DNA of 64,000 bases from Mermis nigrescens. Lineage: Eukaryota; Nematoda; Enoplea; Mermithida; Mermithidae. The DNA lies in the NCBI GenBank assembly GCA_036768485.1, contig JAVLUZ010000509.1, forward strand, positions 513,221-577,220, written 5' to 3'. Below, piece by piece: positions 2,466 to 48,399 of the stretch. The notes under the pieces are model-generated. The model did not search any database and was not told the origin of the DNA. It saw only the letters and a program-made list of their open reading frames with translations. The position numbers and the translations under genes are program-made. The first letter of the stretch is position 1, and every line of letters starts with the position of its first letter.

Positions 2466-2837
2466 AGAAGGTATCTGCTGCAAAGGAGATTCTCAAACTA
2501 TCTATGCAATTTAATGGACTATAGAGAGCACCTATGGGGACACCACAAAAAGTCACAGCAAATAATTTGACAGAAACACTATTGAAGAGTCAACATGAAA
2601 ATGTTGATACCCTATCATAAATGGCACTTCAACACACTAGACAAAATATTTACGGAAATACCAGAGATTTGATGAAAATTGTTACCACCATAAATATCCT
2701 AGAAATGGAAAGTTCTTCATATGAATGGAAAGTGAATAACAAATAAGCTCTGGGATGAGGCAACTAGCTCAACATACCTTTTATAAACAGATTATGGAGA
2801 CTTTAATACTGTAATATCACATTCAACGAGACATGAG

Positions 2838-3275
2838 AGTAGTATAGCATGCGTTCCCTAGGTGCTACACACAGTATATACAGCTATGTTTTGTGTTATA
2901 GGCCCCGCCCACTCCATCCCAGAGGAGCAGCCTCTCCTGTGTTATAGCATAGGCGGATACGCTCTGCTTGCGCCCTGGCTTTTTTCTCAGGGCGCAATGA
3001 GGAGGCATGGGGAAGGGGAAGCTGAGCAAGCCAATGAATTAACATACATATTGTAAGGTGCATACCTACACAATTAAAAAATTGGCAAAACAGTGTGCGT
3101 AATATCGCGCATTGTCAAAGCATTTTTTTGCAGCTGGTAATATCGCCCGTGGAATTTATAATATCGCGCATTGGCAGCGAATTTATAATAAGCGCATTGG
3201 CAAAGCAACGTAGACTGAAACACGATGAATATAATAAGCGCATTGGCAGCAAATTTATAATAAGCGCATTTTGTT
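2838..3275. repeat. Left terminal inverted repeat of the Polinton
   Basis: This stretch matches the reverse complement of about 12373-12790 with scattered differences and small indels. It contains a GC-rich part (2900-3010) and an inner part with repeated short units of the form GCGCATTGGCAGC and TTTATAATAAGCGC (3105-3275). The inner units are themselves semi-repetitive, so the inner boundary is approximate. Confidence 0.9.
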
Positions 3276-3496
3276 GACTGGCGAAGCAATAGCACTAAAT
3301 TGATAATTCTCGCGCCAGGATGGATGGATTGTGCCCAATTTTTCGAACGAGGCATACCATTTTGAGTGCATGTGATGAAATATTTATTTATAGTCTAGGT
3401 CCACGGTCTACTGCATCTTAATCATTCAAGGGGTAGACCGCCGCTCTAGACTAGAAGTTCAACCCCCAATTTCCAAGCCATTTTGGACTTGCAAAA

Positions 3497-3508
3497 TCTA
3501 TAAATACT
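3497..3508 (+). promoter_or_regulatory. TCTATAAATACT box before the first left-end Polinton gene
   Basis: An exact TCTATAAATACT lies 43 nt (first T to A of ATG) before the ATG at 3540. The same dodecamer or a near copy precedes other genes of this element at nearly the same distance. Its function as a TATA promoter is inferred. Confidence 0.7.
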
Positions 3509-3539
3509 AATATTTCTTTCATTAATTTAAAACTTCAAA

Positions 3540-3864
3540 ATGGAGGAAATTATCAAACTGAAAAAAACGTCCTTTCACGGATGAGGAAAAGAAACCTTAT
3601 GGGCGGACAATAAGACCGCCTATTGAGTTATGTGGGAGAAATCTGGAGCGTCCCATATACCCTCTCATGATACATTTATGTCATTTTTGTCAGAAAAATT
3701 TGTCTGAAAAAGACATTTTTGAAACAAATTCAGGAAAATGTTATTTTAACGTTCAGATGTGCCCAAGATGTTTTGAGTATAATCAGGCATCCCAGGAGGC
3801 TGGGAACATGGTGATTAAGAAATATATCGCTCAACAGGTTGAAGAAGCGAAAAATGGCTTGTAA
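3540..3864 (+). pseudogene. Unknown Polinton protein with zinc-ribbon pattern, frameshifted
   Basis: The reading starts at ATG 3540, shifts frame in the A-run near 3562-3568, and then runs open to TAA 3862. The protein would be about 108 residues with two CxxC pairs (CHFC about residue 45, CPRC about residue 70), a small zinc-ribbon-like arrangement, followed by a helical charged tail. It is preceded by a TCTATAAATACT box 43 nt upstream, and its stop is 3 nt before the TATAAATA box of the next gene. I do not recognise the family. Small zinc-binding proteins at element ends can be regulators, but nothing here proves that. Confidence 0.5.
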
Positions 3865-3867
3865 AGT

Positions 3868-3875
3868 TATAAATA
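3868..3875 (+). promoter_or_regulatory. TATAAATA box before the second left-end Polinton gene
   Basis: TATAAATA follows the stop codon of the preceding gene by 3 nt and lies about 40 nt before ATG 3907, matching the spacing seen at the other genes of the element. Confidence 0.55.
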
Positions 3876-3906
3876 TGAGCAATATCTGACAAAAATTATC
3901 TACAAA

Positions 3907-4233
3907 ATGAGTTCTCAAGGTGAATTGAGTTTTAATCATTTTGTGACCAAGTTGGCTGATAAAGCCTGCACGAGGTACATTACTTCTCACAATGTACAAA
4001 GCATTGGCTCCTGCTTTTGGAGTTTGCTGTCTGAAGAATACAAAGAAAATTGCAAAAGCATCAATAATCAGAAAGCATTTTGGAATTTTGCGCTTTATGT
4101 GAAACGATGCCTTATAAATCGTGAAATTGAGCCTATTTTGGATTTATGGCAAGATTTTGATCAAAATGGCAAAAATACATGGGAAAGCATGTATGAAAAT
4201 TGCCTAAACAAGCGAGTTAGTCGTGTATTATAA
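3907..4233 (+). CDS. Unknown Polinton left-end protein, 108 aa
   Basis: An open frame of 108 codons from ATG 3907 to TAA 4231, the longest undamaged small gene of the element. It is preceded by TATAAATA at the standard distance, and its stop codon lies inside another TATAAAC motif, the same gene-end/promoter overlap seen further right. The product looks helical and soluble, with many aromatic residues (three Trp in the second half) and no signal peptide or membrane segment. I do not recognise it. It lies on the plus strand, convergent with the minus-strand polymerase. It may be a lineage-specific accessory gene. Confidence 0.5.
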   Translation: MSSQGELSFNHFVTKLADKACTRYITSHNVQSIGSCFWSLLSEEYKENCKSINNQKAFWNFALYVKRCLINREIEPILDLWQDFDQNGKNTWESMYENCLNKRVSRVL

Positions 4234-4253
4234 ACAATTTGATTGAATTGAAA

Positions 4254-4400
4254 AATGAAAAAAAAAACCCAAAAAAATTAGCACCTCTCAGAGGCATCAT
4301 GTGTGTATGTAAAAAATGGTGGTTGCCCACCACTAATAACCTGCTAGCGCATTGGCAGCATTGGCAAAGCAATTTGCTTACAGCATTGATGATGTCCGGC
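4254..4400 (+). pseudogene. Start of a third left-end gene running into TIR-derived debris
   Basis: An ATG at 4254 about 25 nt after a TATAAAC motif begins a Lys-rich frame broken in an A-run. A short coding-looking stretch with a CVCKKWW segment follows, and then from about 4347 the sequence turns into units of the GCGCATTGGCAGC/GCATTGGCAAAGC type that otherwise occur only in the terminal inverted repeats. The junction lies beside the point where the polymerase gene on the other strand stops matching (4411), so the join is probably a deletion scar. Confidence 0.45.
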
Positions 4401-4410
4401 CAGCTAAGCC

Positions 4411-5183
4411 TCAGGGCTTCTCAGGCATTTTTGTTATTAGATCATAATGATTATTAGCAGCGTGCAAGTGAATTACTTTCTCAGCCTCAGGCCCTTGAAA
4501 GTACAAAATATTGCCATTATAAACTTTTATTTGGTAGTCTGGCACCAGACTCTTTTGGATTTTTTCTACAGCTTTAAGTCCATATTTCTCGTCATTAATG
4601 CTTAGATCAGCTTTGTGCATCAGCTCTAATGAAAGTTGCTTTTGCAGAGTGTGCCGTCCTTTGTCACCTTACCAAACAGATTCCCACTTAGGGCAGTTGT
4701 CTAGCTTTGCTATACCTGTTACAACAGCTCTGGCTAATGATAAATTATGGTTTGATGTGATTCTAATATATGCCCCACCATTTTTGCAAAAGTCACCTAC
4801 TTCAAATTCATAATTGGTACCCATTTAGGGTTTTTTGTCCACCAGAACTACTTTGAAAGTCAAGTCTTCACTTAAACAAAAGTCTTTTGGGACTGAGCCA
4901 CCTTTTCTATAACACTCAAAACCTTGTCAGCATTTATGCATTGACGTTGGGTGAATCGTACTAACACAGGCGTATAAAGGCTTGGCTGTCTAATTTCAAT
5001 GCCTACCATACTGTCATAAGGACAGCCATGCAACATCAGGTTAATAGCTTTTTCAAAAATCTGTTCGAAAATCTCAAAGAGATTAGGGCATCTCGTAAAA
5101 CGCAACAAAAATGCCTTAGCGGTTGTCCTAAACCTACAAACAGAAATGTGTGGGAGCTCATGTACTTCAAAGTACTGCTCCAT
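4411..5183 (-). pseudogene. POLB: Protein-primed DNA polymerase B, N-terminal remnant
   Basis: Read leftwards from ATG 5183. Motifs typical of the N-terminal region of Polinton PolB appear in order: GIEIRQPSL, a K/E-rich linker to VIEKVAQS, FEVGDFCKNGG, NHNLSLARAVVTG, the LQKQL segment, YGLKAVEKIQ, DYQIKVYN, and finally NNHYDLITKMP at the 4411 end. Polinton PolB is normally over 1,000 residues with exonuclease and polymerase domains. Here only about 260 residues remain and none of the catalytic polymerase motifs (such as DTD) is present. There is one frameshift near 4880 and stops near 4823 and 4670. Divergent from the integrase at 5273, with a shared promoter region between them. Confidence 0.85.
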
Positions 5184-5215
5184 TTTCAAATTGCAACTAC
5201 ATACTTACTAATCTT

Positions 5216-5225
5216 TATTTATAGA
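5216..5225 (-). promoter_or_regulatory. TCTATAAATA box of the PolB gene
   Basis: On the minus strand TCTATAAATA begins at 5225, 42 nt before the PolB ATG at 5183, the same spacing as at the plus-strand genes of the element. Confidence 0.65.
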
Positions 5226-5235
5226 CAGAATGATG

Positions 5236-5247
5236 TTAATAAATAGA
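5236..5247 (+). promoter_or_regulatory. TTAATAAATAGA, candidate box of the integrase gene
   Basis: A near match to the TCTATAAATACT box, 37 nt before ATG 5273 and only 10 bp from the divergent PolB box. Weaker than the exact copies. Confidence 0.4.
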
Positions 5248-5272
5248 TGGACTGTTATAAAATGTTTAAAAA

Positions 5273-6333
5273 ATGGAAAAAGTGTTAAAGCACATATATT
5301 ACAACCCTAAAACGGGATATAGTAGCGTGGAACAGCTATATGAGAGGGTTAAAAAAGTAAAGCCAAAAATAGACCGGTCCTATGTGAAACAATGGTTGGA
5401 AAAGCAGCCCACCTACACGTTACACAAACCCGCCCTTAAGAGGTATTCTCGAAATAAAGTGTTAGTAAGTAGCATGGATGAGCAATGACAATGTGATATT
5501 GTAGATCTGCAGTCCTTAAGCAAGTTTAACGATAATTTTAAAAATCTCTTGAATTGCATAGACATATTTTCAAAGTACGCATGGTCCATCCCTTTGAAAT
5601 CAAACAGTTCAAAAGATGTTCTGACCGCTTTTCAAAGCATTTTGCATTCATCAAATCGAAAACCGTACAAGCTGCAAACAGACGCAGGGACCAAATTTAC
5701 AAACAAAGAATTCCAAAAATTTCTTAAATCTGAATTTATTGATTTTTTCACAACTAAAAGCAAAATGAAGGCTAGCGTAGTTGAACGTTTTAATCGCACA
5801 CTTAAAGAACGTATGTGGCGGTACTTCACCAAGAGCAATTCATATAAATTTATTGATGTATTACCCGACTTGATGAAAAACTATAATCACTCCAAGCATC
5901 GTACAATTGGTACCTCACCAGCTAATGTTACAGTCAAAAATGAGACGGAAATTTCAAATAAAGCATTTAGGATTGATAAACAGAATGTTGTTTTTAAATT
6001 TAATATTGGCGATGAAGTCCGACTGAGTAAAGTTAGGCGCGCTTTTGAAAAAGGATTTTGGCCCAACTGGACAGAGGAGTTTTTCATAATTAAGGAGAGG
6101 TTTGCTCGCACACTGCCTGTTTACGTTTTAGAAGACCAAATGGGCAAAAAAAAGTCAAGGGTATTTTCTACAAACCTGAACTGCAAAAAATTGATATATC
6201 CTCGGATGACTTGTTTATTGTTGAAAAGATTTTGAAACTGCGTAAGAAAGGCAATAAAACTGATTATTTAGTGCACTGGCGAGGGTACCCAGAAAAGTTT
6301 GATTCCAGGGTCTCAAACCTGATAAAGTTATAA
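5273..6333 (+). pseudogene. INT: Polinton rve-type integrase with C-terminal chromodomain
   Basis: Starts at ATG 5273. An N-terminal helical part (about 70 residues) is followed by TGA 5486, then in the same frame the DDE core: first Asp in CDIVDL (5492-5509), second in QTDAGTKF (5680-5703), Glu in VVERFNRTLK (about 5779-5808). The catalytic triad is thus intact in the text. The C-terminal part shifts frame near 6160 and ends in a chromodomain (IVEKIL...YLVHWRGYP...) with stop at 6331. The conserved Trp in the chromodomain tail is replaced by Arg (AGG at 6307). Polinton integrases make the 6-bp duplications seen here. Stop plus frameshift make it non-functional. Confidence 0.9.
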
Positions 6334-6377
6334 ACGTCTAAAAAGGGGCACCTAAAGGCCAGATTTTTACACTTTGC

Positions 6378-6655
6378 AATATTTTTTGTAAAGTTTGGGA
6401 TATTTTTTGTAAAGTTTGGAATATTTTTTGTAAAGTTTGGAATATTTTTTGTAAAGTTTGGAAATTTTTTTGTAAAATTTGGAATATTTTTTGTAAAGTT
6501 TGGAATTAATTTTACATGCTTAAGCATAAAACTTTTGCAAAGTTTGGAAGATTTTCTGTAAAATTTGGAATATTTTTGTAAAGTTTGGAATATTTTTTGT
6601 AAAGTTTGGAATATTTTTTGTAAAGTTTGGAAATTTTTTTGTAAAATTTGGAATA
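6378..6655. repeat. 21-bp minisatellite between integrase and TBP genes
   Basis: About 12 units of a 20-21 bp motif of the form AATATTTTTTGTAAAGTTTGG. A unique-looking 24-bp insert near 6507-6530 divides it into two sub-arrays that both end in the same variant order, suggesting a higher-order duplication. It fills the gap between two convergent genes and abuts the TBP stop codon. On the minus strand it reads as a heptad PNFTKNI repeat, which I regard as a by-product. Confidence 0.9.
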
Positions 6656-7174
6656 TTACGTATCTAAGTTGCATTTCTCAAGCATTGTTGAAACTATTTT
6701 ATATGCTATATGCAACTCATGCTTGTGTTTTGCACCTGTGAGAATCATTTTTCCACTTGTAAAGAGTAAAAAGGTCACTTTTCTAAATTTGTATACTAAT
6801 CCGGGAAATAATTCTACTTCATACATGCATTTCCTTTTCACCAGCTCATAAAACTTACAAAGATCAATGCAAAATCCCAAGTTAGCCGAGCCAACAAACA
6901 GCACTGGCTATATTTTCAACATGAAATTCTCCATATTCAGTATATCAATGGATGTCTTTATCGTATTTTCGCCTTCTTGCATAGTTTTAGCTCCAACACA
7001 TACAATTTTACCCGACTTGAAAATCTGCAATGTTGCCTGAGGTAATCAAAATATGATGCCTGGAAATTTTGAGCGATTGTATTGTGCAGTATTTGGCAAT
7101 TTAGGGTAGATATAATCTAGATTCAGCGTATTTGGTAGTGCTGTAGTCAGCACAATGTTCTGTATAGTTACCAT
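6656..7174 (-). pseudogene. TATA-binding protein homologue encoded by the Polinton
   Basis: Read leftwards from ATG 7174 to TAA 6656, a single frame of about 172 codons interrupted by two stops (near 7053 and 6916). It shows both halves of the TBP saddle. Repeat 1 has IQNIVLTTAL, YNRSKFPGIIF and KSGKIVCVGAK; repeat 2 has FVGSANLGFCIDL, YEVELFPGLVYKF, VTFLLFTSGKMILTGAK and a C-terminal helix. The FPGLVY and SGK.(V/I/L).(T/V)GAK signatures are diagnostic of TBP. Length fits the bare core domain (about 180 residues) with no N-terminal extension. Convergent to the integrase, divergent from the ATPase. The context of TATAAATA boxes before its neighbours suggests a promoter-binding role; that link is inference. 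Confidence 0.88.
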
Positions 7175-7176
7175 TT

Positions 7177-7188
7177 TCTATAAATACT
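7177..7188 (+). promoter_or_regulatory. TCTATAAATACT box of the packaging ATPase gene
   Basis: An exact dodecamer 43 nt before ATG 7220, in the 45-bp divergent region between the TBP and ATPase genes. Confidence 0.7.
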
Positions 7189-7202
7189 TCATTATAAACT
7201 TA

Positions 7203-7210
7203 TATTTATA
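7203..7210 (-). promoter_or_regulatory. TATAAATA box of the TBP gene
   Basis: On the minus strand GGTATAAATATA lies about 36 nt before the TBP ATG at 7174. With the plus-strand box at 7177 it makes a compact bidirectional promoter. If real, the TBP gene would be under the same kind of promoter it might recognise. Confidence 0.5.
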
Positions 7211-7219
7211 CCTATAACC

Positions 7220-7867
7220 ATGATGTTCCAACATCCTTTCACCTGCCTTCTTTCAGGACCAACCAAGTCTGGCAAAACAATATTTGTCACGCGATTAATC
7301 AAAAAAAGAGCACACTTGATTGATATTAAAAGCAAAAAGATATGGTGGTGCTTTGCAGAAAATCAGCCTCTTTATAAAAAATTAAATGTTTTATTCATAG
7401 AAGGGCTTCCTGATTTTAATTACTTAAAACAATTTAGTCATATGCCACAACTTTTGATTCTCGATGATCTTATGCAACAGAGCAAGGGTAATTCCCAGAT
7501 TGTTCAACTTTTTACGTGAAGTTGTCATCATTGGAACATTAGCATTATACACATTGTTCAAAACGTTTTCTTTGATGGTCTAAGAACTTCACGCATCAAC
7601 TCTGATTATATAGTTTTATTCAAACACCCTGCTGATCAGCTACAGGCACAAATGCTTTCCAGACAGGTCTATCCTGCCAACGCTAAATATTTTCTAGAAG
7701 CTTATTCAGAAGCTACTTCTCAGCCACATGGTTACCTTTTAATTGATCTAACTCAAAATGCTAGAGATGAGCTCAGGCTTAAAACAAATATTTTTAGCCC
7801 TCATCCAACTGTTTATGTGCAGAAATCTATAAATACTAGTAGAGACATTGCAACAAAAAATGGGTAA
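7220..7867 (+). pseudogene. ATP: Polinton genome-packaging ATPase (FtsK/A32-like)
   Basis: One frame from ATG 7220 to TAA 7865, about 215 codons, broken by a single TGA at 7517. Residues 11-19 form the Walker A loop GPTKSGKT and residues 78-85 the Walker B segment LLILDDLM; the downstream HHWNIS, QNVFFDGLRTS and DLTQNARDELRLKT segments are typical of the Polinton/adenovirus-like packaging ATPases. These load DNA into capsids. The 3' end overlaps the TATA box and start of the next gene. The position of the TGA, where the family usually has an Arg or Gly codon before the HHWN segment, points to a simple point mutation. Confidence 0.9.
7826..7837 (+). promoter_or_regulatory. TCTATAAATACT box of the pX-like gene
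   Basis: Exact dodecamer inside the 3' end of the ATPase gene, 34 nt before ATG 7860. Confidence 0.65.
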
Positions 7868-8210
7868 AGAACTATTAACATGCAATATTGGTTTTTTACA
7901 TCTCCTAAGTCAAGCTAAAAAACCTCAAAGAACCGCTATTATAAATACTGCCAGCAAAGATCAAATCCTTTGTCTCTGTGACTGTGCAAACAACTTTCTG
8001 AATGGTAATATTCCTTTTGCTGAGAAGGATATAAATAAACTTCGAAGATATCAGAATCAAATAAGATACCTGGCAAAGAATAGGCAGGCAACTACAAAAC
8101 AAAAGAAAGATATTATAATACAAGAAGGTGGTTTCCTTCCTCTTTTACTTACTCCTATACTTACAATATCTGGTAGTTTGTTAGCTGATGCAATAGTTGG
8201 TAGAAAATGA
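7860..8210 (+). CDS. Polinton pX-like small virion protein
   Basis: Open frame of 116 codons from ATG 7860. The ATG was chosen because it follows the TATA box by 34 nt; a TTG further up is less likely. It has a helical N-terminal half with a CDCANNFLNGNIPF segment, a basic middle (KLRRYQNQIRYLAKNRQATTKQKKD) and a C-terminal GGFLPLLLTPIL hydrophobic stretch. This layout, ending in a basic run plus a GGFL.LL motif, is common to a small protein of Polintons and adintoviruses that has been compared with adenovirus core protein X. It overlaps the ATPase 3' end by 8 nt and the next gene by 4 nt. It appears undamaged. Function in DNA condensation or capsid is inference. Confidence 0.65.
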   Translation: MGKELLTCNIGFLHLLSQAKKPQRTAIINTASKDQILCLCDCANNFLNGNIPFAEKDINKLRRYQNQIRYLAKNRQATTKQKKDIIIQEGGFLPLLLTPILTISGSLLADAIVGRK

Positions 8211-8772
8211 AACATACTGAAAAGATGATTCTTATACCCGCTGAAATCAGTGAGCGGACTAAACCTATTGATGTTGTGCTAGATTCCTTGGATAATAAAA
8301 TGCAAAAAGTTTTGCATAGCAAAAGTGTAGCTCCTGAAATAAAAGTCATGAAATACAATCAGGCGCTTAACAGATTTAAACGACTATATGAACAAAAGCA
8401 GCAGCCATATAGAGCTAGTATACTTAAAGATGCAAAAAATGCTTTGAGTGTTGTAGATGTGCTCGTTGGTATGCCAAAAAATCAGATTCCAAAGGCCAAA
8501 CTCCTTCTTCACTACATTCTACAAATCCATTTATTGAAATTGAGCCTAATGGCGAGCTTGTGATAGATGGCAATAAAATTGAAGGCTCAAACATTACAGA
8601 TTTAGTTATTGATCTTGCACGTGAGTGTAAGAAAATAAGTAGGCACCCTGGCACAAAAGAATTGCTGAAAGTCTTTAATCACACAAATGTTCCACTGGAA
8701 AGTATAGCAAATAGACAAGGTAAGGAGATTTTTGCTGCAAGTAGTGAATTCGACTGGGATGAAAGTCTATAA
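8207..8772 (+). pseudogene. Conserved Polinton virion-module protein, frameshifted
   Basis: Reading begins at ATG 8207, overlapping the pX-like stop, and shifts frame near 8490 into the frame that ends at TAA 8770. The first half is helical and charged; the second half has GELVIDGNKIEGSNITDL followed by a helix and HPGTKELLKVFNHTNVPLESI. This second pattern (a Gly-rich turn, SNI.DL, a basic helix and NVP) recurs in a Polinton gene of unknown function that usually lies between the ATPase and capsid genes. No TATA box precedes this ATG, so it may share a transcript with the pX-like gene. Its stop codon is inside the next TCTATAAATACT box. Confidence 0.55.
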
Positions 8773-8777
8773 ATACT
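8766..8777 (+). promoter_or_regulatory. TCTATAAATACT box of the pVI-like gene
   Basis: Exact dodecamer 47 nt before ATG 8813; it contains the TAA of the preceding gene. Confidence 0.68.
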
Positions 8778-8812
8778 TATCATATTTAATTCCTTCAAAC
8801 AAAATTACAAAA

Positions 8813-9190
8813 ATGCACGTTCAATTCAATCCTAACAATTACAACATTTGGTTGGACTATTACACAGGGCAGGCTGCCCAAACAGGCTATGGGTTGGAGG
8901 GGTATAAAGGCATCCCATACCAGCGGGGCATGAGTCTTGGCAGCTTTTTCCGTTCGCTTTTCAGAATGGCAGTCCCAGTTTTGCAGTCAATTGGTAAGCA
9001 AGTTGGAAAACATGCTCTAGCTGCAGGTTCAAACATAGCATCTGACTTGGCATGAGGAAAACCGCTTTTTGAATCTACTAAAGAACACTCAAAGCAAGAA
9101 GCTGCAAAACTTTTTGATGAAGCCTCTCATGCCATTCAGCAGCAGCAAGGAGAGGGTCTTGGTAGTCGCCCAAAGTCTATAAATACTAGC
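8813..9190 (+). pseudogene. Polinton pVI-like minor virion protein
   Basis: From ATG 8813 the product has YYTGQAAQTGYG, a QRGMSLGSFFRSLFRMAVP amphipathic region near residues 40-60 and a KQVGKHALAAGSNIASD helix. This resembles the amphipathic small protein found before the capsid gene in Polintons, which is likened to adenovirus pVI, a membrane-active cement protein. A TGA at 9053 ends it early, but the same frame continues with a plausible tail (a Gln-rich run and a Gly/Arg motif) up to the next gene. The frame enters the capsid gene without a stop, probably because the original terminator has mutated. Confidence 0.65.
9176..9187 (+). promoter_or_regulatory. TCTATAAATACT box of the capsid gene
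   Basis: Exact dodecamer 42 nt before ATG 9218. An earlier in-frame ATG at 9191 is only 15 nt away, so 9218 is the better start by the spacing rule of this element. Confidence 0.7.
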
Positions 9191-9988
9191 ATGATTGATG
9201 CTTTTCCAAACAAAAAAATGGCTCTCGTAAACGGAAAATCTATTCTCAGTACTAAAACTGAATTGGACCTTTTCACAGTCCCTCCTACTCAAGTAGTAAT
9301 AAAACGCGGCTTTTGGCATGAAATGCAACCTACAAATCCTATTACCAATGAGGGGCCCTATGAATTCAGAGTACCTCCTGATCCACATTATATTCAGCTT
9401 AATAAAAACTACATTTATATGCTACTGAGAATCAAAAAACCAGTTGTTGCTGCTGGAGCAGCAGTGCCTGACTATGCGCCTATCAATCTTATTGGTAAGA
9501 CTTTCTTCAAGCAAGTAAAATGCTTTTTAGGAGGCAAATTAGTTTTTGACAGCTTAAATATGCATATAGATCATATTTTGAAACTGAATTGAATTATGGG
9601 TATGATGCCAAACATTCACACTTTCAATCTGCGCTGTACTTTCATGATGGTGGAGGCAATGTTGACACAAAAGAGAATGAAGCTTTCAAGAAACGCTCAA
9701 AAATGTTCAAAGATGAAAATGTTGTGGAAGTCGCGGCCCCACTGCACATTGACATGTTCTTGCAAGACAGATATTTAGTTAATTTTACCAATTTCTGCCT
9801 AGAATTACACAGAAATAATAATGCATTTGTTTTGCAGTGTTTTGAGGATGTCAGCCTTGACTTGAAAGTCTCCCAAATAAAATTATTTATTCGAAAAGTT
9901 GAGGTTTTGGACATTGTGAATTTAGCTCTTTAGCAAACAATGCTTTCATATACAGCAAAATATCCCATAAGGCGTGTAGCTTTGACTA

Positions 9989-10865
9989 CACGTCGTTTTC
10001 ACACAATCTGAGAATTTGAGTAGATTTATAAGTATAACTTTTGATCCGCTGGAATTTGTTATGAAAATAAATACAATAAATGATCACAATTCATTCAGCT
10101 TGCTCAAAAATTAGTCCATGTTTCATGTTATAACATGCCTACAGTTTGACAGTCGGTCAATGCTGATTTACCTGCTCACCATTGAATAACTCATTTGAGT
10201 GAAGTGAGGTTTTTTGAGATGAACTCAAGAACCACTAAATGGATTTTCACGAAATAAAGTGTTTTAGATAGACAATTTTAAAATAAAACTATTTTGCTAA
10301 AAAAAGTGTAGCTAGCTTATGTCTACAGTATGCTAGGTCCGAAAAAGTGCTCAAACTTTGTTTGGTCACAGCAGTATACAGGTTAAGTTTCATATTTTGG
10401 AAAATAGCAAAATAGTTAGATATTTTTGTGCTCTAAATTTCACCCCTTTTTGTTTTTCGTATTTCTGAATAGTTCGTCCAGCAATTTCAATTCAATTTTT
10501 TTCCAATATGGCTGCCCTCATAAGGTATGCATTTTACTTGCACTATTTTTCATATTTTCAAACGTTTAAGCACATTTTAGAATGCCCAAAGAAAGCTCAA
10601 TCAAATGATATCCTATTTGTCTGATTTACTAAAGAATTCCAGTTTTTCAATATGGCCACCAGAAAGGCTGTCATACTGTAGCTTTTGATGTTTTTAGCTA
10701 TTATTCTGTGAGTTTCTGACATATTTCTAAATTTTTTTTCAGTAAATAGCTAGAAAATTTAATGTTCTTTTTAACGAGCTATGTCTCATGTTCTGAATCT
10801 TTCTAGTTCATTCCAGGGAAGTTCAAAAACCTCAGAATTATTCATTGTATAGTGAAAATGACGTG
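9989..10865. mobile_element. Chapaev-like non-autonomous element, copy 1 (877 bp)
   Basis: Ends are CACGTCGTTTTCAC and its imperfect inverse GTGAAAATGACGTG, so the element has CAC...GTG termini. It is flanked by the 4-bp duplication ACTA (9985-9988 and 10866-10869). A second copy lies at 51768-52642 with a different 4-bp duplication, and a 3' fragment at 58734-58893. No coding capacity was seen. CAC ends with 4-bp duplications match the Chapaev branch of the CMC superfamily. Confidence 0.8.
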
Positions 10866-11241
10866 ACTAATTTGCACATTTCAAATCCTGCAAGAGAAAC
10901 GCCCAATTAAACATTGTTCACTGGTCAGCTGCCTAGAGCGTATAGTGTTTGCCTGTGTTGAAGGCAGTGCTTATTGAGGCAACTTGGCAAAATCGTCAAT
11001 CAACTTCAAAGCGTTCAGCATAAATGATGTAAAAGTAATGTGTGGAGGTATAACATATCCTGCTTACCCACTCAGCATTTCATTTAAACATGACAGGTAC
11101 TTGCAAGCTTATACTCAGATGTTTGATGCATTAGATATTGGGCACAAAGGTAATTTTATTAGCAGAGAAGATTTTAAAACAAGTCACTGCTTCTTTGTGT
11201 TCGATTTGACCCCTGATGCAGATGATGGAGGACACTGGGAC

Positions 11242-11505
11242 CATACATGGGCAGCAAGAAAATTCTGGGGGATGCAAGATTTTTTTGAAGGTCGAAAAAT
11301 GGCCTTAAAAATGGTGGTATGGCGATAAAAACACAATTTTTCGACGTTTCTCATCAAGCACTATCCATTGGCATCAAAAAATTGCAAAAAAAAACAAGAA
11401 AAATTTTCAAAAATTGAATTCTGGGGGGGTATTTTGATTTGGGGGGGGGGTATTTTGGTTTCTGGGGGGGTGCATACCCCCCCAAACCCCCCACGCCCAG
11501 GTGTG
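11242..11505 (+). mobile_element. hAT-like MITE, copy 1 (264 bp), inside capsid gene
   Basis: Begins CATACATGGGCAGC and ends CGCCCAGGTGTG, imperfect inverted ends of the form CAYACVTGGGC. Flanked by an exact 8-bp duplication ACTGGGAC (11234-11241 and 11506-11513). The inner part has three runs of six or more G separated by TATTTTGRTTTCT-type spacers and a G-run/TGCATA/C-run palindrome. Removing it rejoins the capsid frame. Confidence 0.92.
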
Positions 11506-11662
11506 ACTGGGACCTAGTTCGTGAAGGAACAATGAGCATCGCTGTTAGGTTTTCTGAAAATTTGCCCAATTCTGGCATTGAAATCATTATATATGCTGAA
11601 TTTGATAACTTAATAATGATTGATAAAAATCGAAACACGTTTCATGACTATGATGCATAAAC

Positions 11663-12080
11663 ATGAACACTATTGAAATATTCAAAATTCTCAGACATAA
11701 TAATATATTTGCAGGCGTTTTCCCCATAGATCTTCTGCCACCTATAAAAAAATTACCCTGCGGCTCTGGTTGTAAATTTGGACTCCAGTAAGGAACCAGG
11801 ATTGCACTGGGTCACAATTTATTTCCAAAATAAGAAGCATTGCGACTATTTTGACAGCTATGGGTTAGAACCTAATATTCAATTACATCAATACATTTCT
11901 GATAATGTGCTCTCATTTACATACAATAATATGCAAGTACAAGGGCTTTTTTCAATTAGCTGTGGTCATATGTGTATCTACTTTTTGGTCTGCATGAGCC
12001 AAGGCATAAGTTTCACAAACATTGTTCTGTCTATGCTCAGTAAAAAAATTAATAAATACTTTAATGAACTAGAATTATAA
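11663..12080 (+). pseudogene. PRO: Polinton adenain-type cysteine protease
   Basis: Starts at ATG 11663, three bases after the capsid stop. An N-terminal FAGVFPIDLLPP segment is followed by a 1-nt frame change in the A-run near 11748, and then the catalytic part: His in GLHWVTIYF (residue about 50), Asp in YFDSYG and Cys in SCGHMCIYFL. This His-Asp-Cys order is that of the adenovirus protease family (peptidase C5), which matures capsid proteins. Total length would be about 138 residues, somewhat short of adenain but usual for Polintons. Ends at TAA 12078. Apart from the one shift the frame is whole. Confidence 0.85.
12049..12060 (+). promoter_or_regulatory. TTAATAAATACT, candidate box of the penton-type gene
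   Basis: Ten of twelve positions match TCTATAAATACT; it lies 34 nt before ATG 12083, inside the protease 3' end. Confidence 0.45.
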
Positions 12081-12082
12081 AC

Positions 12083-12372
12083 ATGGATACAAAACAGTTT
12101 TATGTAACGCTTCCGAGCAATTCCCAAGAAAAAAATACTGCAGCCACATTTGTTACCAATCTGCCTAGACAAATCGCATTAAGTGGTGACTGATATGTTG
12201 GGTTATCCAAAATAATTTATGCAAATACATGGCACAATGTTGCCGAGGAGCAGAATATGATACAATTTTATGATTTAAAAAATAATGTTTGAATAAAAAT
12301 GCTTATTCCTCGAGCAAGATATCTAAATATACATGATCCTGTTAAAACAATGAGCAAATGCGTCAATCATAA
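12083..12372 (+). pseudogene. Penton-type minor capsid protein, truncated by the TIR
   Basis: From ATG 12083 the product reads MDTKQFYVTLPSNSQ, then TFVTNLPRQIALSGD, a TGA at 12190, YVGLSKIIYANTWHNV. This matches a conserved Polinton virion protein whose start combines a LPSN motif with a (W)(E/Y)VGL.EI.YP..W.N segment; the TGA falls exactly where that family has Trp. A second stop is at 12291. The frame loses similarity at about 12370, where the terminal inverted repeat begins, so most of the gene is missing. I think it is the penton or another minor capsid gene, but the exact role is uncertain. Confidence 0.6.
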
Positions 12373-12790
12373 AAAATGCGCTTATTATAAATTCGCTATC
12401 AATGCCCAATATAACTTGTCTTTGCCAATGCGCTTACTATAAATTTGCTGCCAATGCGCGATATTATAAATTCCACGCGCGATATTACCAGCTGCAAAAA
12501 AATGCTTCAACAATGTGCAATATTATGCACACTTTTTTGCCAATTTTTTAATTGTGTAGGTATGCACCTTACAATATAAATGTTAATTCCTTGACCTGCT
12601 CAGCTTCCCCTTCCCACATGCCTCATCATTGCGCCCTGAGAGAAAAGCCAGGGCCCAAGCAGGGCGCTTATCCACCTATGCTATAACACAGGAGAGGCTG
12701 CTTCTCTGCAATTGAGTGGGCGGGGCCTATAACACAAAACATAGCTGTATATACTTTGTGTTGCACCCTAGGGACGCATGCTATACTACT
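12373..12790. repeat. Right terminal inverted repeat of the Polinton
   Basis: Inverse of 2838-3275 with differences and indels; ends ...CTATACTACT at 12790, followed by the duplication CATGTG. Confidence 0.9.
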
Positions 12791-12796
12791 CATGTG

Positions 12797-13981
12797 ATCA
12801 TTGAAGCATACCATGATGATGTTCTTTCTGGGCATTTTGGTTTTGAAAAAACTTATGAGAAGATTTGTGAGAAATATTTTTGGGATGGTATGATGCATGA
12901 CATCAAAATACACTGCCAAGAATGCTGATGATGTGTAATATAAAAATCTCCAACTCAAAAAAACACCTGCTGCTCTATGTTCAATACCTGTCAGAGGGCC
13001 ATTTGATAGAGTAGCTACAGATATATTAGGACCACTACCTTGACTTATTCTGGTAATAAATATGTAATTGTATTCAATGATTACCTTATAAAATGGGTTG
13101 AATGTTGCGCAATACCCGATTGCATGGCAAGGTCAACTGCACAAAAACTCATAGAAAATATTTTATGCAGGCTATCAGCCCCTAGGCAGCTTCTTTCAGA
13201 CAGAGGAACTAACTACATGTCAAAATTTGTTAGTGAAATTTGTGAGCTATGTGATACAAAAAAGATTAACACTATGGCTTATCACCATTGACTGATGGAT
13301 TAGTAGAAATATCCAATCACGCCTTAATGAATATGGTTTCTATGTATGCTAGCCAAAATCAGAAGGATTCAGACAAATTTTTTACCTTTTGTTTCATTTG
13401 GGTATAATTCTACACCACAAACTAGTTCTAAATTCAGTCCTTTTGAGTTAGTATATGGCCGGACACCCAGACTACCCATTGATATTACACTAAATTATGT
13501 ACCATCTTGTTACGTAATAGATCTAGATAATTATGCATTATCAGTAAAGCAATACCTTACTTTCGCTTGGACCTCAGCTAAAAATAATATTAATCAAGCT
13601 CAATTTACACAGAAAATGTATTATGATAAAAAGTTTAAAAATGATGAGTATAGAATAGGGGATTTAATATTAATTTTCAATCCTGCATGTAAAATTGGTA
13701 AAACACCTAAACTCATGCATTTGTGGCATGGTCCATATAAGATCAAGGAAATTAATTACCCAATACTAAAAGTTGAAAATAGCACTAAGAAAACTGAACC
13801 GGAATTTGTTCACATTAATTGTATTAAGTTGTATAAACACACATAAGAGGAAAAAGTTAATGATCTATCTCTTACCCCTATGAAACCTTCTGTAAATAAA
13901 TTAAAAAAAGCTGCATCAATAGCACCTAGACATGCATATAATTTGAGGAGCAGATTAGGAATTAGTAATTCTGAACAATAA
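12797..13981 (+). pseudogene. pol: Integrase of element A
   Basis: Continues the pol frame cut by the Polinton. A zinc-binding part (EAYHDDVLSGHFGF, HCQEC) is followed by the core: FDRVATDILGPLP with the first Asp (13008), LLSDRGTNYMS with the second (about 13194), and TDGLVE with the Glu (about 13300). There are shifts near 13040 and 13290 and several stops. After the core a GPYKIKEI segment and a C-terminal HAYNLRSR motif (about 13933), common at the end of Gypsy pol proteins, precede TAA 13979. The first 6 bases downstream of the Polinton are its target duplication. Confidence 0.85.
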
Positions 13982-27716: not shown

Positions 27717-30732
<3,016 letters not shown>

Positions 30733-32786: not shown

Positions 32787-33365
32787 ATGGATTTACGTTT
32801 TAAACACCCTTTTACATGTATTGTTGCTGGTCCAACAAAGACTGGCAAGACAACTTTTGTTAAGAAACTTGTTGAAAAAACACACAGTTTCATTTCTCCA
32901 GCTCCTAAATTTATTTGGTGATTTTTTGCTAAAGATTACAAAAAAATGGAAAATGTAATTCTTATGAAAGGCCCTCCAGATTTGAATTTAGTTAGACAAA
33001 ATTCGCCGAACCACAACTAATAATTATTGATGACTTGATGCATGGAATGAATAATGAGATATTATTTACATGTGGTTGTCATCATTGGAATATTTCTGTT
33101 GTACACATTGTTCAAAATTTATTTTTCAAAGGTCTAAGAACATGTCAAGTAAATGCAGAGTATTTAGTATTAATGAAAAATCCTTCGGATTGATTGCTAG
33201 TACAGACTTTGGCTAAGCAACTCTATCCTCATTATGCAAAATATTTCTTAGAAGCATACAATGATGCGACTGAAAAACCATTCTCGTTTATTTTAGTTGA
33301 TTTGAGGCAAAGTACGCCCAAAACATTTCGGTTGCGCGCCAAAATTTTTCAAATAGTCCAGTAGT
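32787..33365 (+). pseudogene. ATP: Packaging ATPase of a second Polinton (fragment)
   Basis: ATG 32787 starts a frame with FKHPFTCIVAGPTKTGKTTF: the Walker A loop GPTKTGKT at residues 13-20, as in the Polinton at 7220. A TGA near 32920 replaces a Trp/Cys position, then a frameshift near 33000 leads to the Walker B LIIIDDLM, HHWNISVVHIVQNLFF and KYFLEAYNDAT..FSFILVDLRQST. Amino-acid differences from the first copy are numerous, so this is another lineage rather than a recent duplicate. No left end or inverted repeats of this element were found. Confidence 0.85.
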
Positions 33366-43827: not shown

Positions 43828-46800
43828 TATGTGACCCCTTGGTAACAGGAGGGTTAAACTCAGCATTTTAGCATACTTTCTATGTTTACAACTGAGTGCC
43901 TAGCAATGTTTTAATGCAAACAATTTACATACAACACAAAGCTGGACAAACAATAATTTTGAATCAATCTTCTTGATACATTTTGCATTCCAATCAATCA
44001 GCAGTACAATCTATATGCTAAAACTCAACAGAAAGCAATTTTTGTAACAATGTGACATTTAGCTCAGTCTTGCAAGCCTGTAATTCAATAATTGTAATAG
44101 ACTCAGGATCTAATTCATACAATCTCCATTTCTGGCCAATGCACTACATCAAAACTTGAGTACAATTTTTTCTGGTAGATGCTATTGAGCTATGGGAGCA
44201 GGAGTAGGGACACTAGGGACACTAGGTCACTCTTTGATTTGGTTTTTGATCATCTTGTAATACAAGAATTTTGAATCAAAATAATTATACTGACATTTGA
44301 AGACATTTTATGTTAGCCCTAATCACAGTCATCAGCAAATCAATTTTTCAATATTAAACAAATAAGAGGACCCAGCCTTCAAATAGAGTACAGGTTATTA
44401 ATATAAACAACTTTGAGCTAATTTATTGAGAATGAATATGCTTGCTTAGTAAGGAATAGCTTTAATGCTTAAATAATGCAGGAAAGATACATACCTCACA
44501 AAGGTTGTAATAGTCTTTTTCAAAGAATGATACTTTTTTACATTCCAGACATGTTTCTAATACATAGAAACATTTACAAATGTCAAAAAAATTTTAAAAA
44601 TTTCAGTAAATTAAACCAAGTGTAGCTAAAAATGAGTATATGGCGCAAACCACCAAGAGTGTCAAAAGAAGCACACTTGCTATGACTTCTTTGGAAAATC
44701 GACAAATCTGCGAGATAGCAGCTATGATTGAACAAATATTCCAGATTACTACTTTCATTTACAAACTATTTCACAATTTACACAGGATTGGAAGAGAACA
44801 CAAGACTTACTCAACATTTTTTGGAAACACTGGTTAATTAAGTATTCAGTAAGTTGAGTTTATGTGAATGACTACCTTTACATCACAGGCCCTTACAAAT
44901 ACATTAAGCAATAGAAGCAAAACAGGATGACATTGTAATAATTAGGACAAAGATTTACAAAGAGGAAAGTGGATATTATGTCACATAGTTCAACTGAATT
45001 CTAGTGGAGATAATGAAATCAGATCACATAGGTAGAACTGTCTAACAATAGAAAAATAAGAAGACCTATCAATCATTTGTATCCTCTTGAGATACCAAAC
45101 AACAATAATGAACCACAAACTTCTGTCTAACATTATCCTTCCATCAGCATAGGACAGTAGCACATAGACTCAAAAAAACTATGTGCAATGTTACTGATTT
45201 TAACTAAAGTCTCTTTGCTCAAACTTTCATTAAACAGGGGATAATTATACTAAAAGACATATGAACAGATCATTATAATTATGTTGTAAAAGATCTTGTG
45301 TCATATGGGCCACTTGATGAGTGATGACAAATGTGGCAAAAGTGTGGATGCCCACCTAGGTCATGATTGTTCATTTTATGATGGACCAGAACCAAAAAGA
45401 ATTAGTAAAAGAGGACAAATAATTAAACTTGCAAAACCACTTATCTGCTCACCAGTACATACAAAACATAATCAAATTCAGCTTTATAACAAAACAACAC
45501 ATTTTGTGAATAATCTACAAATTACATTATCAACAACTGATACTGCTGATTTGTTCTATCTTGCAGAGGGAGATCTGATTCTTGGTATGACATAATATTG
45601 TGAAGCTTATAAACAAATCTATTCTAGAACTGATTATTATTAAGAGCATAAATACTACATATTTCTAATCAAGATTGTAATTGTAATTTAAGGGTTGGAT
45701 ATTTTCCTACTAGAAGCTAAAGAAGATTGAGTGATTTACGAATCTAGATCTATTCAACCAAATTTAATTTATTACATGTGCTGAAAAGCTGGCAGATAAA
45801 TCTTAGAAAAACCTGTGTTTTTACACTGTTCACTAAAGTATAAAGTTTATACCCCTGGCAGTAACTCCATATTGAGTGTACAAAACTTTGCTGCTAAAGC
45901 AGAAATCAGCCCTTGAGCCATTATAAATTCTATAAGAAAAAAATTTTTGGGAAACAGAATCAGACTTGTTGGCAGACATAAACATATCCAAAACTTGATC
46001 AAAATTTTTTTCATTGCTCCTGATTTTTGCATTCTTAACTTTACCATTCATGAACTGATGCCAAATTCGAAAATTAAAAAATATTTATCTAGAAAATTCT
46101 ATCCTCTACAATTCTAGACTATTGAATTGTATAAGGCGTTTACAGAGTTGTGCACATGCTACAAAAAAAGCCACCAAAATGAGCTACATGTTATAACATT
46201 ATACCAAAATTTTACATCACCATTTCAAACTCAGTCTTGAGTGCAAAACAAAAACAAACAAGCTCCATTGACTTTTTTCTTTATCTATTGTTTGAAAGAC
46301 TGCATCTTAAGATGTGTCCATTATAGCTGTAAGGGCAGGTGCACAGGTGTTAGGGGTTCCTACTTAAGTATGTTATAAGTACACACTAATGCACTACCTC
46401 ATGGAAATCTAAAGTCTGAAATTACCAAAAAGCAAGAACAGGTAAGCTTGTGAAGTATAAAATCACATTTCTGTAGGTAAAACAGCAAGCTGATGGCTGT
46501 CTCTTGATCGCAAATACCAACTAGGAAAAAGCCCAGCATGTTGGGGGACTATAATGAAATAGGGATTTCATTTAGACCCTGGCAAAATTGAAAAAAACAG
46601 CATTATGAGAACACTTGTTGAATTAATGCTCAATTCTTATTGGTGTAAGGTGAGAAAAATTTTAATAATCATATCTGCAAAAAGTATATTTGTGTGCTAA
46701 GAGTATGCTAAATAACCTTTGGCATTTTTAGGTTTATTTGGAGAAATTATTAAATTTCATATTTCCTTCATTTTTTATGAAATTTTGCAGTGGAACAATC

Positions 46801-48399
46801 AATCCCAAATGAAATTTTCACAGATCAGTGGCACTTTTTGACCTCATGTTCAGCTATAAAATCAATATCCTGATCACAAGCAAGAAATTTTTGGAGATTT
46901 GCTGGCATGTCACCTGCCCAAACAAGGACCAGTTTTTGGTAGCCCTACATAGTACCATCACAGCTATTGACAATTTTGTGACTGTTAAGCTTAATTCAAA
47001 GTTCATTCATATGTAGAAAATCTTTAAGGAAGGGTGCTCTTTCCCGATACCAGTGAAGTACATTTTTTATCAACTTTGTGACGTTTCTGTGAAGTTGGTA
47101 TTTTTTACAATTGTGTATAAAAGATAAAGGGGTAAGCATCAGAGGCCAGCTCAAGCAATTTACGCTTATGCTGACATTTCTCTTTTTAGTTTTAGACTCA
47201 ATAATTTATCTTACTAAGACCAGCAACGCATATTCCATGCCAACTGGCTGTGATCTAGGGGAAATGACCAAAAAGCTGAAAAATTTGGAGAAAATTCATA
47301 CATTTAGGTGTTTGTGACAGGGGCCCTTAAGACTCTGGGTACAGAGTTCTAAACAAGGATGTGGAAATAGTGGGAGAAGGTATTAAAGTTAGAAAAATCA
47401 AAATGACCTATCCTGCAAAAAAACCGCTTGTTTTAAATGCTGCATTCCATGACTAACCATTGCAGATTTTTTTGACAATCCTACCATAAAAACAATTGTG
47501 GAAACACAAATTTTACTCAATGATTAATATAAGATTTTCACCCTGATTTGTTCTAAAGACTATAGCGTAGTTTGAACCAAAAGAACTTTGTATCCCACCT
47601 TTCACACCCTTCTATGTTGCTACTGAGTTTTTACAGCATTTTTGCTGGCTGTACATCATTAGCAGTATTATGTATTTTTCCAAAAATATCGCACTTTATT
47701 TTGCATATGTTCTGTAAAGCTGAATAAAATTTGGAGAACAAATGTGTCTTCAAAACACATATATAATCCGTACAAGCAAAAAGGAGATTAAACCTATGGT
47801 GAACTAACCTTGGGAAGTCTTCAGCATAGAATGAAAATTCACATTGCTCTCACAAATATATTTTTGTTTTAACAAAAAACAACATCAGAAAAAATCACAA
47901 GTCTTTGGCTGTCTCCATGCTGCTCAAAAAATCATGAAGTGAAGTGATAACAGTATAAAGGTGCAGAAGGTGAAAATAGTGAAAATAACATACTAATAAA
48001 CAGAGTGAATAGTAATACTACGGCATTCTTCGGCTGAAGAACTTGGGGAAATAAAATGGACCTATGAGCTCAGCTTTTAAATCAATCTTAATGTGGGTAC
48101 ATCTTCTGTAAATAATAAGTACTTTATTTCTGCCAAAATTGTACTGCTCCATTTCCATGGCATGGAAGATCATCCTAATTTTTGATTCTCTTATTCTAAA
48201 ATAGGAATCACGTCTCCTATTTTCAATCATGTAATTGACAGCTGTGATCATAATGATTAGTTTTGAGAAATGTCTGTACACATGATCAGAGAGAAAAATG
48301 ATGAACCAAAAATTTTTGAAGAATAATATCGTTTTGAAACTACTGTTAATGCAAAACAATATACATGACTTTTAAAAAATGATGAATATTACAAGTGCA
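43828..48399. other. AT-rich non-coding DNA
   Basis: No gene recognised. A 99-codon frame at 45296-45595 and a 66-codon frame at 47117-47317 with a hydrophobic segment resemble nothing known to me and have no supporting signals. Confidence 0.45.

Follow-up and report, generated by a model that had tools for sequence, protein, structure and literature searches.

A TATA-binding protein gene carried by Polinton-type elements of the nematode Mermis nigrescens

Described relatives and the element of the window

TATA-binding protein (TBP) is a general transcription factor that marks where genes start and, to our knowledge, it lies outside the standard Polinton gene set. The elements described here share with Polintons/Mavericks and adintoviruses the terminal inverted repeats, a target-site duplication of about 6 bp, an rve integrase, an ATPase and, more tentatively, an adenain-like protease and capsid-type genes. 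In the related element at locus L018 the integrase (rve at 44.3 bits) also bears a Chromo domain, as in adintoviruses, whose integrase has a C-terminal chromodomain according to PMC11071296. In contrast to both groups, however, the elements studied here carry a TBP, and those of the window type lack a PolB core in our searches. A term search of PMC11071308, PMC10120064 and PMC11071296 found neither TATA nor TBP mentioned, and no report of TBP in Polintons was found in the open-licence literature searched.

Giant viruses (mimiviruses and kin) likewise carry a TBP. A megavirus TBP has been described (PMC11464507). According to PMC7221094, viral TBPs vary at both glutamates that contact TFIIB, almost all TBP-bearing viruses also encode a TFIIB-like protein, and the basic patch of the N-lobe is assigned to contacts with TFIIA, Mot1, TAF1 and Brf. 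Mirusviruses, a lineage of eukaryote-infecting DNA viruses, have a TBP in 59% of genomes (PMC10132985), and a green alga carries the gene within mirusvirus-like inserts (PMC10675990). Mirusviruses are large HK97-capsid viruses, a description that sets them apart from our elements. Unlike giant-virus TBPs, the element TBPs keep both glutamates in 17 of 18 cases, and the ORFs scanned with Pfam in the window and its relatives yielded no TFIIB; the N-lobe of the element TBPs is like that of viral TBPs, and their TFIIB site is not. Eukaryotic TBPs and TRFs have the same fold and main contacts as the element TBPs, yet the main element clade falls outside those sampled.

The window, that is, the whole 64-kb stretch of M. 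nigrescens DNA that was analysed, holds at 2838-12790 an element of 9.95 kb bounded by terminal inverted repeats of 0.37 kb and flanked by a 6-bp target-site duplication, five of whose six bases are alike when the flanks are read directly. Its features, promoter boxes aside, are the following.

2832..2837, no strand: left target-site duplication CATGAG, read from sequence, edge set by the repeat
2838..3208, plus: left terminal inverted repeat, about 92% identical to the right arm
3540..3864, plus: small CxxC...CxxC (zinc-ribbon-like) protein gene, broken (by eye)
3907..4233, plus: 108-aa ORF, resembling L018:2823-3149 by eye
4420..5189, minus: gene labelled PolBN (tblastn)
5273..6330, plus: rve integrase, fragmented (tblastn; profile)
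6656..7174, minus: TBP gene with both repeats, broken by two in-frame stops (Pfam, tblastn)
7220..7822, plus: packaging-ATPase-like gene, broken (tblastn, 83% to L018)
8207..8715, plus: conserved element gene g234 (tblastn)
8813..9217, plus: conserved element gene g145 (tblastn)
9212..11657, plus: major capsid protein gene, interrupted (tblastn; 9987 to 10863 without match)
11663..12077, plus: adenain-like protease gene, broken (tblastn)
12083..12358, plus: minor-capsid-like gene, truncated match (tblastn)
12416..12790, minus: right terminal inverted repeat, partner of 2838-3208
12791..12796, no strand: right target-site duplication CATGTG, read from sequence

The minus-strand reading of 6656-7174 translates to 172 codons and a final stop, with two in-frame stops. 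Searched separately, the three pieces between stops all exceed the 22.9-bit cut-off of the TBP profile PF00352 (1.7e-7, 2.7e-8 and 4.2e-19), and the last of them hits 35 distinct sequences from solved TBP structures, with values from 1.4e-22 to 8.2e-15. The first-pass annotation, made from the letters alone, had read both TBP repeats and their motifs on this strand, and translation, Pfam and the solved structures bear it out. It was equally right in placing the gene between the integrase and the packaging ATPase, with an rve profile on one side and the ATPase-like gene found by tblastn on the other, and within the arms of the inverted repeats. This copy of TBP is a pseudogene. It is 73.7% identical to the TBP of L018 (tblastn), and the TBPs of the relatives L018 and L017 reach 152.7 and 162.3 bits with PF00352.

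The element as a whole is decayed: integrase and capsid matches are fragmentary and the capsid gene is interrupted. The rve profile is found on ORF 5549-6235 (2.7e-8, 34.4 bits, cut-off 32.6). The ATPase-like ORF itself gives only Pfam scores below cut-off, its relative in L018 matching Pox_A32 at 22.8 bits, exactly the cut-off of 22.8; the protease scores 20.1 bits (window) and 20.4 bits with PF00770 (cut-off 21.3). As to a double jelly-roll capsid protein, the capsid of L027 scores 20 bits with PF21738 (cut-off 27) and that of L018 has no Pfam match; the capsid and minor-capsid-like names are tentative. PolBN, whose relative in L015 gave no match in a Pfam search, is presumably tied to the N-terminus of PolB. 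Tblastn with the PolB of L012 and L013 as queries detected no PolB core in the window element, nor in L015, the sole relative read end to end; we therefore describe both as Polinton-type elements without PolB.

Several other structures were observed in the window. A short tandem repeat with units of about 21 bp (by eye) occupies 6380-6655, between the 3' ends of the integrase and TBP genes, and a 71-bp repeat lies at the corresponding spot of L018 (4314-4512). The right flank, 12797-13846, has an integrase-like reading of Ty3/gypsy type (by eye), and the element seems to have inserted into such a retrotransposon. Other Polinton-type pieces, with an L017-like ATPase and PolB-like stretches, are found at 32793-33352 and 46441-47596. 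A near-perfect, spacerless inverted repeat at 28883-29276, whose arms slide, is probably a self-complementary simple repeat.

Copies, synteny and other lineages

We searched the genome to which the window belongs (same assembly, 524 Mb, 860 contigs). The best 150 of 2553 candidate TBP repeat matches all lie above the Pfam cut-off, and 142 of these 150 stretches are free of stops. They represent at least 139 places on 80 contigs, among them contigs of 23 and 49 Mb. Two places on contig C73 we take, judging by eye, to be exons of the animal-type TBP gene of the host, which leaves at least 137 places beyond it; element context was read in part of them, in twenty 9.9-kb stretches around TBP matches. 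Intact TBP frames at the same syntenic place are present in related elements of this genome, in line with the search for intact copies that the first-pass annotation had proposed. In L018 and L019, which are 97.7% alike over 7.45 kb, the TBP, ATPase and capsid frames are all open; in L015 TBP is open and the capsid broken.

The association of TBP with the capsid gene was counted from the capsid side. Among the best 96 of 2614 candidates for related capsid genes (92 of the 96 stop-free), 26 have a TBP among the matches listed within 10 kb, versus 0.6% expected by chance, and 24 of these 26 pairs are spaced by 2.25-2.87 or 3.34 kb. For 20 of the remaining 70 capsids the expected spot was sought and, one having fallen off its contig, 19 were read: TBP was there in 15, nine times as a full-length open frame, and absent from the spot in four (L030, L031, L032, L043). 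By these counts TBP is part of the gene set in the element lineage of the window.

TBP is also carried by other lineages. In the L017, L026 and L027 elements, whose capsid is 58% identical, it is placed after the minor-capsid-like gene; it is found in L016, with a remote capsid (24-29% identical), which L024 resembles. It adjoins PolB in L011, L012, L013, L020 and L022 (confirmed by Pfam, PF03175, in L012 and L013); its neighbours in L011, L012, L013, L020 and L023 include F-box-like genes, co-occurrence here meaning presence in the same stretch, as terminal repeats do not fix a single shared element. The F-box-like genes lie at L011:6161-6979, L012:5645-6511 and L013:2943-3779, with a Pfam F-box confirmed in L012 only, and F-box-like pieces flank TBP on both sides in L003-L006 and L008.

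A small CxxC...CxxC protein, the zinc-ribbon-like protein of the window, recurs at L018:2437-2778, L012:4341-4724 and L009:4065-4427, is 60-62% identical across three lineages and adjoins TBP in L012 and L009; in the window, the DNA of this region (3492-3807) matches L018:2392-2702 at 74%. L009:1-9015 is a large inverted repeat whose arms match over 2.88 kb (98.4%) and a further 1.26 kb (96.8%), and at its centre TBP and the CxxC...CxxC protein are the only ORFs of at least 90 aa. The inverted repeat may be an assembly artefact; L010, which has a similar TBP, shows none of this type.

Outside this genome, the metagenome proteins P0007 and P0018 are 54% and 48% identical to the TBP of L018. The CxxC...CxxC protein has 24 metagenome relatives, one labelled as a phage protein; they show no Pfam domain and otherwise no informative name. 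In IMG/VR viral contigs, pattern matches (ATPase 8, TBP 30, capsid 26, zinc-ribbon protein 43) yielded 0 confirmed loci, so that spread to other hosts is suggested by metagenome proteins free of context.

Ancestry, selection and contact residues

Between element TBPs dN/dS is 0.11-0.23 in nine of 12 pairs and 0.32-0.55 in the other three, where changes are few; the pairs are partly non-independent and dS is saturated in one. Such purifying values show that the source lineages were under selection, and not that every copy was.

A 42-row tree that takes in TBPs of Asgard and other archaea joins ten element TBPs with P0007 and P0018 in one clade (97/91). This clade, the eukaryotic TBPs and the L017 type together split from the archaea (100/98), and neither element type falls within the group of sampled eukaryotic TBPs (91/86). 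Trees of 41 and 70 rows likewise set the main element clade apart. Constraining this clade to join the host TBP is weakly rejected (p 0.041, 41-row tree); joining it with a wider animal set is not rejected at 5% (p 0.088, 42-row tree). The archaeal outgroup comprises 15 of 80 TBP loci from a contig scan, and the eukaryotes with a name make up a small set of insects, fungi, one plant, Fonticula and one eukprot SAG. Left out were near-identical element copies (L019, L026, L009, L016, and in the 41- and 42-row trees also L014 and L015), a second TBP present in L023, and the majority of the 120 homologues listed; P0002, with its very long branch, enters the 70-row tree only. Because of long branches, a short alignment, a host row without its first exon and the few eukaryotes, a position of the element TBPs near the base of eukaryotic TBPs is a best guess. 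In these trees the element TBPs do not come out as host retrocopies, and tree, synteny, copy number and dN/dS lead us to reject a recent retrocopy or passenger gene.

The L017-type TBP falls nearer to eukaryotic TBPs than the main element clade does, occupies a different position within its element, and may represent a second, separate capture. A single clade of all element TBPs is not rejected, however (AU p 0.323 and 0.282). Between L017 and L018, TBP is 39% identical, compared with 58% for capsid and ATPase and 55% for g145; this is no proof of separate capture, because the minor-capsid-like protein (36%), g234 (33%) and the protease (42%) are equally distant.

The TBP of L018 is predicted to fold into a complete saddle (model; VIA comparison). 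In the same 17 of 18 element TBPs that keep the TFIIB glutamates, the four DNA-intercalating positions are Phe or Tyr; L016 has a deletion across the TFIIB-contact stretch. Of six basic N-lobe residues, at positions chosen by presumed numbering, the host keeps six and other element lineages two to four, while a single Lys is retained in the window lineage (L018, L023a), along with one His in each. An Asn of repeat 2, presumably involved in DNA contact, is replaced by Leu in the window lineage and Met in the L012 lineage, which may alter that contact. The KFPG of repeat 1 in the window lineage corresponds to RFAA in the host; QFPG is found in several archaeal TBPs.

TATA boxes and the possible role of the element TBP

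The sequence CTATAAATA occurs seven times in the window, each time inside the element. These boxes and one further box facing TBP are:

3385..3393, minus: CTATAAATA box
3498..3506, plus: CTATAAATA box ahead of the zinc-ribbon-like gene
5216..5224, minus: CTATAAATA box ahead of PolBN
7178..7186, plus: CTATAAATA box facing the ATPase gene
7203..7210, minus: TATAAATA box facing TBP
7827..7835, plus: CTATAAATA box
8767..8775, plus: CTATAAATA box
9177..9185, plus: CTATAAATA box ahead of the capsid gene

We counted TATAAATA 20-60 nt upstream of the first ATG of ORFs of at least 100 aa. It was found at six of 11 sites in L018 (P 1e-7), 31-49 nt upstream of six ORFs, at 6/11 in the related L019 and at 3/11 in the window element (P 4.5e-4). 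Among the other lineages, L012 (2/5, P 0.0015), L013 (1/3), L017 (1/1) and L016 (1/6) show weak enrichment, which is not significant or absent in L024 (1/9), L027 (0/4) and L026 (no site); in the L017 type, AAAGTCTATAAAAGA stands ahead of two capsid-side genes (by eye). The promoter of about 45 bp shared by TBP and ATPase has TATAAATA facing TBP in all 11 distinct sequences (20 copies). The box facing the ATPase, which adjoins the TBP start codon, is TATAAATA in eight, TATATATA in two and TATACATA in one; the count is a descriptive one, over sequences related by descent. We would guess that TBP binding here could switch between the two genes.

The reading that we favour, with moderate confidence, is that the element TBP loads host TFIIB and RNA polymerase II on the element's own TATA promoters, in keeping with the suggestion of the first-pass annotation that such an element could direct transcription of its own genes; the boxes and the conserved contact residues point this way. 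TBP is a lasting part of the gene set of these Polinton-type elements, of which the window holds a decayed copy. It is predicted to bind the TATA boxes about 30-50 nt upstream of many element genes and, once bound, would bring in host TFIIB and polymerase. The element would gain a promoter-selection factor depending less on host TBP and its regulators, and might escape control of the TFIIA/Mot1/TAF1 type. Boxes alone do not prove a need for the element TBP, because host TBP should bind them too. A bolder version, possible at best, holds that an ancient third TBP lineage near the eukaryotic base and its zinc-ribbon-like partner form a minimal promoter-selection module acting via host TFIIB and Pol II, and that compact L009-like elements mobilise the pair alone.

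It is unlikely, in our view, that the element TBP serves as a decoy or competitor, disturbing host transcription through titration of TFIIB, TAFs or TATA sites and playing no dedicated part at element promoters. A partial competitor might keep the TFIIB glutamates and DNA-contact positions and lose most N-lobe basic residues, as the window lineage does; the strong TATA boxes upstream of the element's own ORFs in this lineage speak against it. Less likely still is that the protein works outside transcription, in replication, integration targeting or DNA bending. TBP bends AT-rich DNA, L009 has it at the centre of a large inverted repeat, and the lack of a PolB hit in the window element and in L015 leaves their replication unexplained. 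However, the L018 boxes stand 31-49 nt ahead of ORF starts, and the terminal repeats of the window element contain none of its 11 TATAAATA sites. That TBP is a passenger, a retrocopy or chance capture functionless for the element, is very improbable: no introns interrupt the gene and the copy in the window is broken, but the TBP of the window lineage is about 38% identical to host TBP, groups separately in trees and recurs with the same placement in dozens of copies, dN/dS is far under 1, and several element lineages carry a TBP. A misjoin or contaminant is hardly credible given the many places and the long contigs listed above.

The descriptions of virus-borne TBPs that we found concern large viruses. 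At about 10 kb, an element with a TBP, and with no polymerase or TFIIB seen, would rank as a very small means of redirecting Pol II, and its family offers a natural test of co-evolution between TBP and the TATA box. If their deep branching is true, the element TBPs sample early TBP diversity.
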